Assembly (NCBI GenBank): GCA_022984795.1
Contig: JALIHJ010000030.1
Location: 124,001-188,000 of the forward strand
Direction of reading: 5' to 3'
Source: Fabrea salina
Taxonomy: Eukaryota; Ciliophora; Heterotrichea; Heterotrichida; Fabreidae
Length of the DNA: 64,000 nt
The notes under the pieces were generated by a model. The model had not been told where the DNA came from and did no database searches. It was given only the letters and a program-made list of their open reading frames with translations. Position numbers and translations under genes: made by a program. How positions within the stretch are numbered: the stretch's first letter is position 1; each line of letters begins with the position of its first letter. This document shows positions 6,455 to 29,780 of the stretch, in pieces.

Positions 6455-6685
6455 TTAGTTACTAAATTTAGCCTGCAGTTGTTCACGTCTTGCTTCGAGC
6501 TTAGCTTTGTACTGTGTGTAGGCAACCCCAAAAAATACTAAAGGAGAAACTAAAGCTAAGCTGTGTGACTTCCAAGAAGAGTAAGGCCTCATTTTAAAGT
6601 ACCTGACTCCAAAGTATATTCCTCCGCAAGTGAAGAACCACTGTCGAAAGGCCAAACAAAAAGTGCACTTAGGGGAACTTTCCAT
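6455..6685 (-). CDS. small two-segment membrane protein, unknown (possibly DMAC1-like)
   Basis: 76 residues. A CTFC motif near the N-terminus leads into a hydrophobic stretch (~8-28), and a second follows (~43-58) before a charged helical tail. A cysteine pair before two short membrane segments recalls the mitochondrial DMAC1/TMEM261 family, but the match is too weak to name it. Its stop codon is immediately next to the photolyase stop, with no intergenic base. Its ATG lies 5 bp from the ATG of the divergent MED31-HIBCH gene. Both borders with neighbours are therefore minimal. Confidence 0.65.
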   Translation of the reverse strand: MESSPKCTFCLAFRQWFFTCGGIYFGVRYFKMRPYSSWKSHSLALVSPLVFFGVAYTQYKAKLEARREQLQAKFSN

Positions 6686-6690: not shown

Positions 6691-8076
6691 ATGCAAGAGC
6701 AAACGGAATTTCTAAGATTCCAAATGGAACTAGAGTTTATTCAGTGCTTGTGTCACATGGGGTACCTGAACTGTAAGACTTACCTAGACCTTGCACTTAC
6801 AGGTTACTTTGACGACCCTAAGTTCATTGCTTATTTGGAGTACCTTAAGTACTGGAAGTCCCCTGAGTACTCTAAGTTCCTTATGTAACAACTACTTAGC
6901 TTTCCACAGTGCCTTCACTTTTTAGAACTTCTGCAGTCACAAGAGTTCAGGCAGTCTTGCAAAGACACGGCTTTCACCGACATGATGCATCGACAGCAGT
7001 TCTTCCACTGGTACTACCAAGAAAAGTCCCAGCCTGTAGAAAAGTACATCACTCCTATGCTCAAACTAGAATTAACTGACTCTTACCACGAAATTGTAAT
7101 AGCAAGAGAAGCCAGTTTGAACACATTTAACCTAGAAATACTTGAAAGCTTAAAAAAGATTCTTACTCAAACTAAGGAATCTCCCCAGCTTCTAATGCTT
7201 TCAGGTGAGAAAAAAGTACTTAGTGCGGGGGACGACTACGTAGGAATCTTTTATTCGCCTAGAAGCATTTCTGACTATTTAGCTTACAAGTTCCAGTCTT
7301 GGTATTTACTTAAGTGCCGCCAAAACAGTTTGTGCTTTATGCAGGGCTCAATCATGGGCTCAGGACTTGGACTAGCGCTCTCGTGCAATTTAAGGGTAGC
7401 CACTCCTTCTACAGTGGTTCAACTGCCTGAGAATTCTTTAGGTCTGATTCCTGACCCAAGTGCTTTGTACTTTTTAAGCACTCACTCTAACCAACCCCTA
7501 GGCCTTTACTTAGCCCTTTCTGGAGCTACTCTCAAAGGGGCTGACTTGTACTTGTACGGATTTGCTACACACTTTATGAGTGACGACATGGTGAACAGAG
7601 CTGTAACCAGCATTAAAGGCGGACATTCTTTAAGTGTAGTTTTAGACAAACTTTGCACAGTTCCTTCAGTTAGTCAGTCGTCCTTAGAGCCTGCAATGTC
7701 TGAAATAAAAGAAGTTTTTGGAAACTACACTTCTTTGCAAGACATTTATCAAAGACTTGCCAGTAGAAGCACTGATTTTTCCAAACAAACCCTTATGCTT
7801 TTGAAACCTTTGTGTCCTTTGTCTCTGAGAATAACTACAAAAGCCTTTTTTAACTTTAGCAAACTTACCTTTGAAGAAGCCCTCTGCAAAGGGTACGACC
7901 TGTTATGCCAGTTAATAATTCACAGAAGCTACAACTTTTCAATAGCAGTAAACCACAAACTTCTATACAAGTCAAAGTCCCCTATGCCTTGGAGTCCAGA
8001 CGACGTCTCCACAATAACTCCGCAAATATTGGCGCCCTTTTTCAATAATTCTGAAGGTCCCCATTTAGAACTTTAA
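6691..8076 (+). CDS. MED31 - 3-hydroxyisobutyryl-CoA hydrolase fusion
   Basis: Spliced over a 15-nt intron (6885-6899) this reads 456 residues. Residues 6-105 are a complete Mediator subunit 31: [11 protein letters not shown], the [17 protein letters not shown] stretch, and after the intron [12 protein letters not shown] and QQFFHWYY. Without a stop it continues (from ~118) into a crotonase-fold protein of the HIBCH type. This has SAGDDY at the oxyanion-hole strand, [28 protein letters not shown] with the Glu and Asp that act in HIBCH, FATHFM, and a C-terminus like HIBCH (PMPWSPDDV). MED31 works in nuclear transcription; HIBCH hydrolyses 3-hydroxyisobutyryl-CoA in mitochondrial valine breakdown, so the pairing is odd. 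An in-frame ATG at 7057 could start the HIBCH half alone, without an obvious targeting peptide. Confidence 0.88.
6885..6899 (+). other. 15-nt intron in MED31-HIBCH
   Basis: GTAACAACTACTTAG. Removing it restores the MED31 core motif across the junction; retention gives an immediate in-frame TAA. A is at position 10. Confidence 0.93.
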
Positions 8077-8084
8077 ATTTAAAT

Positions 8085-9092
8085 ATGCAAGTAGAGCGCG
8101 AATGCGACAAAGAAAACGTCTCTTACGGAAACCAAGCAACGCAGATAGAAAGGCTCAAAGAAAAAGGAATCAACCAAAATGACATTTCAAAACTAAAAGA
8201 AGCTGGCATTTGCACTGTGGAAAGTCTTAACATGATGACTAAGAAGTTCCTGATTACGATAAAAGGAATTTCTGAAGCCAAAGCTGATAAGTTATTGGAA
8301 GTCGCCAGAAGTTACATGCAGTTAGGCTTCATGACCGCTTCTGACTACAACGAAGCTAGGAAAAATATAGTATATTTAAGTTCAGGTTCCAAAGAAGTAG
8401 ACAAACTCCTTGGAGGCGGCATTGAAACAGGTTCTATTACTGAACTATTTGGGGAGTTCCGCACTGGCAAAACACAGATTTGCCACACTCTAGCTGTGAC
8501 CACTCAACTTCCCTTTGAAATGGGCGGAGCTGCTGCTAAAGTGATTTACATCGACACAGAAGGCACCTTCCGTCCTGAAAGAATCACAGCAGTGGCTCAG
8601 AGGTTTGGCCTGGACCCCCAAGCTTGTCTAGACAACATTATTTGCGGACGTCCTTACAACTCTGACCAGCAAATCCAGCTTTTAATGCACGCTTCAGCAC
8701 TTATGGCAGAGGGAAGGTTTGGGCTGCTTATAGTGGACTCAGCTACTTGTCTGTACAGAACAGACTACCAAGGACGTGGGGAGTTAGCCGCAAGGCAAAA
8801 CCACTTGGGTAAGTTTTTAAGGTACTTGCAGAGACTAGCTGACGAGTTCGGAGTAGCTGTAGTTATAACTAACCAAGTAGTGGCCCAAGTGGACGGAGCT
8901 GCTATGTTCCAAGCAGACGCAAAGAAGCCCATAGGGGGGCATATAATGGCACATGCTTCACAAACAAGACTCTACTTGAGGAAAGGTAGGGGTGAAAGCA
9001 GAATTATGAAAGTTTACGACTCTCCAAGCCTTCCTGAGTCAGAAGCAGCTTACGCTATTTCTGAAGGAGGCATAATTGACTATAATGACTAG
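8085..9092 (+). CDS. RAD51: RAD51 recombinase
   Basis: 335 residues, matching the family length (~340). An N-terminal helix-hairpin-helix domain (~20-80) precedes the RecA core with Walker A GEFRTGKT (~126-133), [12 protein letters not shown], Walker B LLIVDSA (~219), and the DNA-binding loop region [15 protein letters not shown]. It ends near [12 protein letters not shown] as RAD51 does. The protein forms filaments on single-stranded DNA and drives strand exchange in double-strand-break repair. The sequence looks closer to RAD51 than to DMC1, but a tree would be needed to exclude a meiotic paralogue. It starts 8 bp after the HIBCH stop and is followed 6 bp later by the next ATG. No intron was found. 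Confidence 0.95.
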
Positions 9093-26318: not shown

Positions 26319-27335
26319 ATGGCTATTCCAAAAAGTGCATTATCATACTCGCAAGCATTCAAAGACACAGAAAAGGAACTTAAAAACCACCTGCCTCCTT
26401 GGAAAGAAGCTAACTCCTCCCAAAAGTTAGCACTGCTTGCTATATACGCTGCAATATACTTTCCTGTAGCAATTTTACTAAGCCTTGTAATTGGTGTTTA
26501 CTCCCTTTACATAATTTTTTACGTTTATCCTTTGATAACCGACGAGCCCAACCCTCCAGACCTTTACTTTTACCAAAGTTCCTCTGAACAAAGCTTTGCA
26601 AAAGCAAGGGGGTACTTGTGTTTAGTTTTAGTTTCTTGGTGCTTGTTTTGGTTACTATGCAGCATGTTTAAAGCTATCTTTACAGACCCAGGGCAGATTC
26701 CCCAGACTCAGGAGTGGGATGCTCCTTACGATGAAGCTTCTGAGTCCTCTTCTGACCTTACTCCTCAAACCTTTGAAAAGCGCAAAGATGGAGCAAGCAG
26801 AGCATGTCCTCGCTGTAATCGGCGCAAACCTGACAGGTCACACCACTGCAAACAGTGCCAAAGGTGCAACTTGAAGATGGACCACCACTGCAATTGGATT
26901 GCTAACTGTGTAGGCTACTTCAACTATAAGTACTTTTACTTGATTCTTTTTTACGGCAGCATAGCTTTGTCAATATTCATAGGGACCTTTTGGGAGGCAG
27001 TGATAGTAAACTTGGACGACCCAGATAATTCAACACTGACTTGCTTCTTAGTTGCTTTGTGCTACTCACTAATGATAATGCTAGGCGTGTCAGTAGTGGG
27101 GTTTTTTATATTCCACAGTTGGCTTATAGCTAAGAACTACACCACCATAGAGTTCTGTGAAAAAAGAAGACAAAAAGTAATAGAGTATAGAGAAAGTCCC
27201 TATGCCTTTTCAGTGTACTACAATTTCCAAGAAGCCCTTGGAGACAATCCCTGCATGTGGTTTTTCCCTTTTAAGTACCGAAAAGAACGCCAGAATGGGC
27301 TAAGTTTCAAGTTTCAAAAAGTTAATATTGAGTAA
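26319..27335 (+). CDS. DHHC palmitoyltransferase
   Basis: 338 residues. Four membrane segments lie at about 46-68, 93-115, 205-228 and 240-265. The cysteine-rich catalytic domain sits between the second and third, with CPRCNRRKPDRSHHCKQC and KMDHHCNWIANCVGYFNYKYF; the catalytic Cys is in DHHC. It transfers palmitate from acyl-CoA to protein cysteines at the Golgi, endosome or cell membrane. Substrates cannot be inferred. The stop TAA is followed at once by the ATG of CFAP69, with no base between. Confidence 0.95.
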   Translation: MAIPKSALSYSQAFKDTEKELKNHLPPWKEANSSQKLALLAIYAAIYFPVAILLSLVIGVYSLYIIFYVYPLITDEPNPPDLYFYQSSSEQSFAKARGYLCLVLVSWCLFWLLCSMFKAIFTDPGQIPQTQEWDAPYDEASESSSDLTPQTFEKRKDGASRACPRCNRRKPDRSHHCKQCQRCNLKMDHHCNWIANCVGYFNYKYFYLILFYGSIALSIFIGTFWEAVIVNLDDPDNSTLTCFLVALCYSLMIMLGVSVVGFFIFHSWLIAKNYTTIEFCEKRRQKVIEYRESPYAFSVYYNFQEALGDNPCMWFFPFKYRKERQNGLSFKFQKVNIE

Positions 27336-29780
27336 ATGGCAAGTAACGTCACACTTGAGAACGCCATAACCCTTATAACTTCTAAGTACACTGCTGAAAG
27401 AATAGACAGACACGCTGCTATGGTTCGGCGGATTTGCAGTGACAAGTCTCCTTACTCTGAAGGGTTTTACTTCAAAGACTTAGAGGTAGTAATGAAGCTA
27501 GTTGAAATACTCGTCAAAGGAATCGAAGAGGGAAAGCAAGAATACTTCCAAGCTCTGCAGACTCTGATCAACCACTGCAAACTGGACTTCCGCAAAGAAA
27601 AGTCAAGTGACGAAAACAACTACGTTCCTTTGCTTCCTCAGTTTTTGGAAAACTTCACTCCAATCCTCAAATTTAAAGAAGAGTCCAAAAAAGACTTAGT
27701 TCTTACAATTTGTGACTTCGTGACCTTTTTCGCAGCTAAAGAAACCCAAGTTTCTGCTAAGTCTCCTGCCAAACACTCTAAAAGTTCTGTGTCTAGCTTC
27801 AATAAAACGTCTGTCTCCGAAGAAATCGAAGAACCATTGGGAGTCCAAATCAGAAAAAAAGGAACTAAGTACTTGCGTGCTTTAGCCAACACTACACTTC
27901 CTGAGGCCTTTGTGCAGCTTTTAGCCGACAATGTGTCTGACCCTGAAATAGCAGCTCACTCAGTCCAAGCGATATCAGCTATTTCTATTTACGCTCCTTT
28001 AGCCCAGAAAATAGGAGAACTGGGGGCACTCAAGGACTTAGTAGTGGTGATTTGCAGTACTCCGAACTTCAGAGACCCACTTGTTAACATTTGCATAGAG
28101 TGCATTTGGAATATTCTTGAGCAGTCCGGACAAGACTCGATAGAGACCCTTGCTAGGGAAGAACTGATTCTTTCACTGCAATCCACAATCAACAAAGTGA
28201 TCACAGAGGGCTACAAACTCTCAGACAGAAAACTAAGGAACGAACTAATGATTCTGGTAACTACAGTAGTAGCAAGCACACACACCCACCCTTTCTTTTT
28301 GTCAAAAGAAGAGAATCCAGTTTCTTTTTTGGAACAACTCATTAAGTACAGTTCTTACGACGAAGTTAACCTGACTTCTGAAACTCCTGTGAAGCCCATG
28401 TGGGGTTCGGAGCCCGAAGACCTGGAATTCAAAAAGTTACTTTGGACTTGTGTAAGTAGGCTGATTTCTACACAACAAGAAGAAGCTGTTAAGGTGATAA
28501 TGAACAGCAACTACTTAGCTTCTATGCTTATTTACTTAGACCCCTTCCAAAAGAACCAACCTATCCAAAGGTGGCAGTCAGCCCAACTCAAAGAAATCCA
28601 AGCCCACGCCCTTTACATAATATACCACATCCTCTCAATAATTCCTGACCATTTCCAGCAGCAAAACGGAAACTACTGTTTAGTGCACTTCTTGAATGTG
28701 CATCAAGACATTCAAATGAAGCTAGCTACTTTAAAAGTGCTAGAAATCGCTTCTCAGTTCAGCGAGTTCAAAGAAGAGCTTTCAGAAGAGGGCTTGTTTG
28801 ACAACTTAATAGGCATAGTAGAAGGAGATGTGGACTACCCTTTGTCTGTGAGGGAACTGGCTTTGTCCATTGTTTCAAATGCTTGCAAAGACTGCAGAAA
28901 AAACCAAAAAGAAATCAGGCGCAAAGGCTGGATAGAAATAATAAAGTCCAACATCAAAGAAATTCCTCCTACGGTTTCTGGAGAACCAGATCAGTACCTA
29001 CTTGCAGTTCTGGACTGTTTGTGGCATGCAATCCTCCAAAACAAAAGGTCTGTTCTCCACTTTGTAGACATTGAAGGAGTTTCCACACTTCTGGACTACT
29101 TAGACGAGTGTCCTGAAATCCACAGAAGACTAGTGGTGTCTTGTTTGTGCAAAGTTCTTACTGTGCAAAGGGCTAAAAGTGCCTTTACTAGTTGGAACTC
29201 CATCAAAAACATGTCGAATGCTTCACAACTAATGGTGAAGTTGTACGAAGAAGAAGAAAAGAGACTCGGAGTTGAGTATGAAGAAGAAGGAGTGCTAAAA
29301 AACCCAGAGCGTCCCCTAGCTTACAACGAAGCTAAAACCACCAAAGGCTTTGAAAGACTAAGAGAAGCTTTGCTTGCTGGGGAGAACCAAAGCGAGATTT
29401 CAGTGATCCGCAAAAAGCAACTAGAAGTAGTTAGGAAAAGAGATTTGCGCGCAAGCATTTACAGTTGTCTTTCTTTAGTGGGCTTTGACGTGAATGAACT
29501 TGAAGGCAAAGAAAGACAAAAGATGGAAGTGATTCGCATGTACCCTGAGTTCAGAAAAGGAGAGTTACTGCTAGACATCAAGTACGAACTAGAAACCTTA
29601 GGAATAAGACCTATCACTGATGATAGAGTGTCCCTAGAAGAGTGGCTTAAAGAGTCCTACGAAAAAGCTTCTAACACCAAAAAGAACCAGTTGATGATTG
29701 CAAAGGACCTTAAACGACAAGAAGAAAAGTCACTTGAAGAGTTCTACCAGAAGATCCTTAAAAACGGCAAAACCATGTAA
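27336..29780 (+). CDS. CFAP69: CFAP69, armadillo-repeat ciliary protein
   Basis: 814 residues of helical armadillo-type repeats. Several blocks match CFAP69 as I recall it: DRKLRNELMILVTTVVAS, DLEFKKLLWTCVSRLIS, RWQSAQLKEIQAHALYII, LYEEEEKRLGV and LETLGIRPITDD near the C-terminus. CFAP69 belongs to the central-apparatus C1b projection in motile cilia and is needed for normal beating. The protein is somewhat shorter than the human form (~941). Its ATG directly follows the stop codon of the DHHC gene, so it has no room for its own leader unless transcription starts inside that gene. Confidence 0.88.
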   Translation: MASNVTLENAITLITSKYTAERIDRHAAMVRRICSDKSPYSEGFYFKDLEVVMKLVEILVKGIEEGKQEYFQALQTLINHCKLDFRKEKSSDENNYVPLLPQFLENFTPILKFKEESKKDLVLTICDFVTFFAAKETQVSAKSPAKHSKSSVSSFNKTSVSEEIEEPLGVQIRKKGTKYLRALANTTLPEAFVQLLADNVSDPEIAAHSVQAISAISIYAPLAQKIGELGALKDLVVVICSTPNFRDPLVNICIECIWNILEQSGQDSIETLAREELILSLQSTINKVITEGYKLSDRKLRNELMILVTTVVASTHTHPFFLSKEENPVSFLEQLIKYSSYDEVNLTSETPVKPMWGSEPEDLEFKKLLWTCVSRLISTQQEEAVKVIMNSNYLASMLIYLDPFQKNQPIQRWQSAQLKEIQAHALYIIYHILSIIPDHFQQQNGNYCLVHFLNVHQDIQMKLATLKVLEIASQFSEFKEELSEEGLFDNLIGIVEGDVDYPLSVRELALSIVSNACKDCRKNQKEIRRKGWIEIIKSNIKEIPPTVSGEPDQYLLAVLDCLWHAILQNKRSVLHFVDIEGVSTLLDYLDECPEIHRRLVVSCLCKVLTVQRAKSAFTSWNSIKNMSNASQLMVKLYEEEEKRLGVEYEEEGVLKNPERPLAYNEAKTTKGFERLREALLAGENQSEISVIRKKQLEVVRKRDLRASIYSCLSLVGFDVNELEGKERQKMEVIRMYPEFRKGELLLDIKYELETLGIRPITDDRVSLEEWLKESYEKASNTKKNQLMIAKDLKRQEEKSLEEFYQKILKNGKTM

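Follow-up and report, generated by a model that had tools for sequence, protein, structure and literature searches.

A continuous MED31–HIBCH-type crotonase reading frame in the compact genome of Fabrea salina

The locus and its reading frame

We analysed a 64-kb window, the whole stretch of DNA from position 124001 to 188000 of its contig in Fabrea salina, and searched the genome (18.33 Mb, 103 contigs) with sequence profiles. Fabrea salina uses the standard code and has 15-nt introns. On the plus strand of the window, a Mediator subunit 31 (MED31) domain is followed in one frame by a crotonase domain of the 3-hydroxyisobutyryl-CoA hydrolase (HIBCH) type. The features of the locus, in window positions, are as follows.

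6691–8076, plus strand: fused MED31–HIBCH coding sequence, 451 aa with two introns removed; stop codon TAA at 8074–8076; recognised by the open frame and the pair of Pfam matches
6691–7017, plus strand: MED31 part, residues 1–99 (Pfam Med31 at residues 9–99; numbering corrected by five for intron 1)
6773–6787, plus strand: intron 1, 15 nt, GTAAGACTTACCTAG; its removal takes out a 5-residue insertion relative to human and S. pombe MED31
6885–6899, plus strand: intron 2, 15 nt, GTAACAACTACTTAG; if it were kept, the frame would stop at TAA 6886–6888
7018–7056, plus strand: linker, residues 100–112 (13 residues)
7037–7039, plus strand: TAG in the +1 frame, a MED31 stop only after a one-base shift or a 16-nt non-consensus splice at 7011–7026
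7057–7059, plus strand: suggested internal start ATG, with a poor context score (−6.4)
7057–8073, plus strand: HIBCH-type crotonase part, residues 113–451 (ECH_2 match at 7093–8043; predicted HIBCH fold)
8085–9092, plus strand: next gene, RAD51 family (Pfam Rad51, 1.7e-123), beginning 8 nt past the stop of the fusion

Positions 6691–8073 translate without a stop once 6885–6899 is removed, and ATG 7057 becomes residue 113 of the spliced protein. The proposed Pfam search found both Med31 (PF05669) and ECH_2 (PF16113) in this single protein. The Med31 match (E = 2.9e-31; 107.8 bits against a cut-off of 25) covered profile positions 3–93 of 95, and the ECH_2 match (1.4e-51; 176.5 bits) covered positions 4–335 of 335. 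Across the junction, the codon score over 210 nt was 0.085 in the fusion frame versus −0.145 and −0.214 in the other frames. The fusion frame is confirmed in the sequence, as the initial annotation had described it, with the right coordinates and no internal stop.

The window contains 24 long ORFs, of which 18 were scanned against Pfam here, four were left unscanned and two (the fusion locus and RAD51) were scanned separately. None of the 18 combined unrelated Pfam families, and two had no Pfam match at all; this count speaks against a general habit of fusion in the window. Since both domains lie far above their curated cut-offs and 0/18 other ORFs join unrelated families, the fusion is beyond chance. 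Upstream, the ATG of a minus-strand ORF of 76 aa (6455–6685), which has no Pfam match, lies 5 nt away from that of MED31. If this ORF is real, it and MED31 would be divergent genes with a common 5-nt spacer.

A single 15-nt intron had been annotated previously. The intron at 6885–6899 stood, and the count did not, because a second one at 6773–6787 had been overlooked. Both introns match the pattern GTAANNNNTANYTAG, which has three occurrences in the window where 0.33 would be expected, two of the three being these introns, on which the pattern was itself partly shaped. For introns and starts we used a 244-kb sample consisting of the window and 18 stretches of 10 kb (L010–L027). This sample contained nine candidate frame-bridging 15-nt introns, two of them mutually overlapping, with a consensus near GTAA....TACTTAG; the other lengths between 13 and 20 nt gave one or two candidates apiece. 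A loose count of GTA..TAG spacings in the sample had no excess at 15 nt. A search for a consensus 15-nt intron at the MED31/HIBCH junction found none. In Blepharisma, introns of 16 nt occur, according to the accessible part of the published report (PMC9942806).

The two halves of the predicted protein

The fusion locus gave the single PF05669 match in a profile search of all contigs, and the genome-wide search yielded no second, unfused MED31 copy. Given that no in-frame stop separates the halves and that this is the only PF05669 match, a MED31-only protein is not encoded as written. The MED31 half aligned to the 7emf chain over the full domain (E = 2.6e-27), with 51% identity to the human segment. 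The fused protein thus carries a full Med31 domain like MED31/SOH1 (PF05669) proteins, whereas the MED31 chains among the PDB matches comprise 93–151 residues and have no enzyme domain. The MED31 chain of 6w1s has 93 residues, the last of which is the conserved Trp, so a tail past this Trp is probably free. Scans of viral contigs (109 pattern matches) and prokaryote contigs (113) revealed no MED31 relatives, a comparison that says nothing on heterotrichs.

Four further Mediator subunits were matched in the genome by Pfam.

MED7: locus L028, contig C40
MED6: locus L029, contig C24
MED14: locus L110, contig C70
MED4: locus L111, contig C16

MED7 is 167 aa long after removal of one intron and aligns to its 7emf chain from residue 4; the match covers its N-terminal part. 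As MED4, MED6, MED7 and MED14 are encoded, MED31 has partners. MED21 and MED10 gave no match in a genome search that had no positive control. According to the available part of one report, Med4, Med7N, Med14 and Med31 form the Mediator knob, which touches the Pol II tail (PMC6130968). In Tetrahymena, as far as the accessible text goes, Med31-FZZ is macronuclear and pulls down Mediator (PMC6562869), which indicates that Med31 can bear a tag. According to the available part of another report (PMC12716044), MED31 is the subunit of Mediator that can still be recognised in Paramecium and Tetrahymena. With MED7, MED6, MED14 and MED4 detectable, more of Mediator is seen here than that partial source gives for Paramecium (MED31 only).

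Turning to the second half, the genome contains 16 ECH_2 matches, eight of them spanning nearly the whole profile. Two of these eight (L002 and L003) are canonical HIBCH genes, with N-termini that by eye are basic and targeting-like. The remaining six (L004–L009), the fused one included, group together on long branches with a support of 100/100; the branch of the fused half is the longest among the six (2.28), so that its position in the tree is unsure. The Glu and Asp of PE..IG..PD, which we take to be the catalytic residues of HIBCH, are kept in the fused half, in line with the initial annotation. The 18 bacterial rows of the alignment read AGGD and PDVG or PDIG at two motifs that in the fused half are AGDD and PDPS. 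Elsewhere in the six-gene group, the catalytic Asp is missing from L006, and L008 retains neither Glu nor Asp; these losses indicate that the group tolerates decay.

The predicted fold of the HIBCH half is complete (pLDDT 86.0, pTM 0.88), the first 60 residues being less certain, and it matched human HIBCH (3bpt) in Foldseek with a TMq of 0.90. The top Foldseek match was plant mS47 (TMq 0.90–0.92), which shares the predicted fold but has a lower sequence score: the best PDB match by sequence was human HIBCH (3bpt) at 1.1e-28, with plant mS47 at 1.2e-21. A long HIBCH-like gene, L112 on contig C18, aligned over about 700 residues with chain 6z1p_BI of the Tetrahymena mitoribosome (2.9e-58) and, by this similarity, is likely the mS47 of this genome. 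We do not favour mS47 as the identity of the fused half, because HIBCH is closer by sequence and L112 suits that role better; mS47 comes first in the Foldseek ranking alone. A canonical mitochondrial HIBCH was also rejected: by eye there is no room for a targeting sequence before MED31, and the gene stands apart from L002 and L003.

Judged from its sequence, the fused half is a HIBCH-like member of the diverged six-gene group. It has the same full profile match (PF16113), predicted fold, Glu and Asp as HIBCH, but differs in having no targeting-like N-terminus, in belonging to a diverged group and in its AGDD and PDPS motifs. The initial annotation had noticed no obvious mitochondrial signal, and by eye the N-terminus is indeed not mitochondrial-looking. 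It had also framed the fusion in terms of mitochondrial valine degradation. That framing fails, since the fused half is a diverged paralogue and the canonical L002 and L003, as well as the mS47-like L112, lie elsewhere.

Start contexts and gene spacing

The 244-kb sample contained 119 long coding ORFs, in 97 of which an in-frame stop lies no more than 60 nt upstream of the first ATG ("bracketed" starts). A start model of a 12-position context separated these 97 starts from 731 internal ATGs with an AUC of 0.93; picking starts close to a stop may favour AT-rich flanks. The start context is strongly A/T-rich: among the 97 starts, 70% have A at −2 and 55% have A at −3. The score of ATG 7057 was lower than those of all 97 bracketed starts (lowest, −4.4) and fell at the 18th percentile of the 731 internal ATGs. 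ATG 6691, the MED31 start, scored 5.24, the 76th percentile of the 97 starts, and ATGs 6982 and 6985 scored lower than ATG 7057. Among the 22 ORFs outside the model, four were below ATG 7057. One of them is the ORF at 6982 in the fusion locus itself; in the other three the frame stays open for 81–453 nt upstream, so the true start need not be their first ATG.

Base composition was also compared. The 30 nt 5' of ATG 7057 have an AT fraction of 0.53 versus at least 0.67 in 30/30 close tandem downstream genes. The AT-richest 30 nt ending before 7057 reach 0.60, and positions 7056–7085, just within the HIBCH half, reach 0.70. The starts of seven HIBCH paralogues, all outside the training sample, scored −1.6 to 4.6, with an upstream AT fraction of 0.60–0.80 (two at 0.60–0.63). 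By the context and AT tests, and exceptions among the left-out ORFs and the paralogues aside, the HIBCH half is without a gene-like start. The internal initiation at ATG 7057 suggested earlier is argued against by this start context, which is worse than 97/97 starts.

Genes in the sample are closely packed. Tandem neighbours were at most 60 nt apart in 31 of 50 pairs, and one pair of the 50 overlapped, by 14 nt. The two genes were in frame in 14 of the 31 tight pairs, five of which had a single stop between them. Given that tandem genes nearly touch and are often in frame, stop loss is an easy event here; yet none of the 18 other long ORFs is fused. In a genome this compact, where only a few bases separate neighbouring genes and neighbours often share a frame, new proteins can arise when one stop codon is lost. 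In one pair, a DHHC palmitoyltransferase gene (26319–27335, plus strand) is followed by a CFAP69-like gene (27336–29780, plus strand), the TAA of the former abutting the in-frame ATG of the latter (27333–27338) with no spacer. This pair is one stop codon short of a fusion.

Readings of the locus

We favour one continuous gene over two. The reading that we consider probable is a single gene for one 451-residue polypeptide of MED31, linker and crotonase that arose by stop loss, in which MED31 docks and the crotonase is a passenger. In this polypeptide, the only recognised MED31 of the genome would be joined by a short linker to a complete HIBCH-type crotonase. We expect the MED31 half to bind MED7 in the knob of Mediator in the usual way, with the crotonase most likely riding on Mediator as a C-terminal passenger. 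As to its origin, a diverged, non-mitochondrial HIBCH paralogue probably lay a few nt 3' of MED31 and the intervening stop was lost. A single mRNA over both halves, incorporation into Mediator, enzymatic activity and the stop-loss origin are what we infer from these features.

Two alternatives would separate the halves. The locus could give two products from a real fusion frame, by internal initiation, separate transcripts, alternative splicing or cleavage. ATG 7057 immediately precedes the first strand of the predicted fold, and genes this close must have nearly overlapping transcripts. However, the start context is poor at 7057, 6982 and 6985, and a MED31-only mRNA would otherwise be without a stop. 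Such a stop, at 7037, would be gained by splicing the 16-nt GT-AG site at 7011–7026, but this site lacks the consensus TA and TAG, and its splicing would delete the conserved Trp. We regard two products as unlikely. The locus could also hold two ordinary neighbouring genes joined by a sequence or assembly error, namely a shift by one base somewhere from about 7013 to 7036. The run of 4 A at 7022–7025 would be a place for it, the +1-frame TAG at 7037–7039 would end MED31 17 nt before ATG 7057, and a gap of 17 nt is typical for this genome. On the other hand, a stop in one of the two other linker frames is likely by chance (about 0.7 by our own estimate), ATG 7057 would rank worst of the bracketed starts, and all 30 close tandem genes have a more AT-rich upstream region than it has. 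The start context of ATG 7057 thus disfavours both the one-base error and the splice, and we consider the former very doubtful.

The fusion may also couple function. The crotonase would then be a Mediator-held nuclear acyl-CoA hydrolase that alters or senses the local supply of short-chain acyl-CoA and in this way regulates chromatin or Pol II. The kept Glu and Asp and the full predicted fold are compatible with this, but the fused half is the longest branch of its group and has the altered AGDD and PDPS motifs, and the losses in its sisters L006 and L008 point to a group that tolerates decay. CDY and CDYL are nuclear proteins in which a crotonase fold is joined to a chromodomain. Both were among the fold matches, at lower similarity (TMq 0.50 and 0.49), and CDYL is tied to histone crotonylation in the accessible part of the literature. 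Like the fusion, they combine a crotonase fold with another domain; they differ in that this domain is a chromodomain rather than MED31 and that their crotonase is short and not of the HIBCH type. By analogy, a nuclear acyl-CoA role of the crotonase is possible, and we consider functional coupling of this kind rather unlikely. It seems quite improbable that every Mediator here carries a MED31-linked HIBCH-type hydrolase in the knob near the Pol II tail, tuning or sensing short-chain acyl-CoAs at promoters; if true, a metabolic enzyme would be built into the core transcription machinery.

Judged from the two profile matches, the fusion brings two known families together in a new combination of domains. 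Our literature search, with most subscription papers beyond its reach, found no report of a MED31–HIBCH fusion. MED31 is a universal transcription subunit, and its only recognised copy in this very compact genome shares one reading frame with a metabolic-type enzyme domain; the transcription machinery may thus carry an enzyme as an additional part. Should the only MED31 copy always be tethered to a crotonase, simple gene fusion would have given a core transcription complex an enzyme, and the covalent coupling of metabolism to transcription could be tested directly.

A HIBCH–Med31 link is also known from a fungus. According to the accessible part of the report, the Penicillium transcription factor PoxRsrA binds both a putative HIBCH and Med31 (PMC10570388), a contact that would speak for functional coupling, but the link there runs through separate proteins. 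The same partial source gives 21.9% identity between the putative fungal HIBCH and yeast HIBCH.
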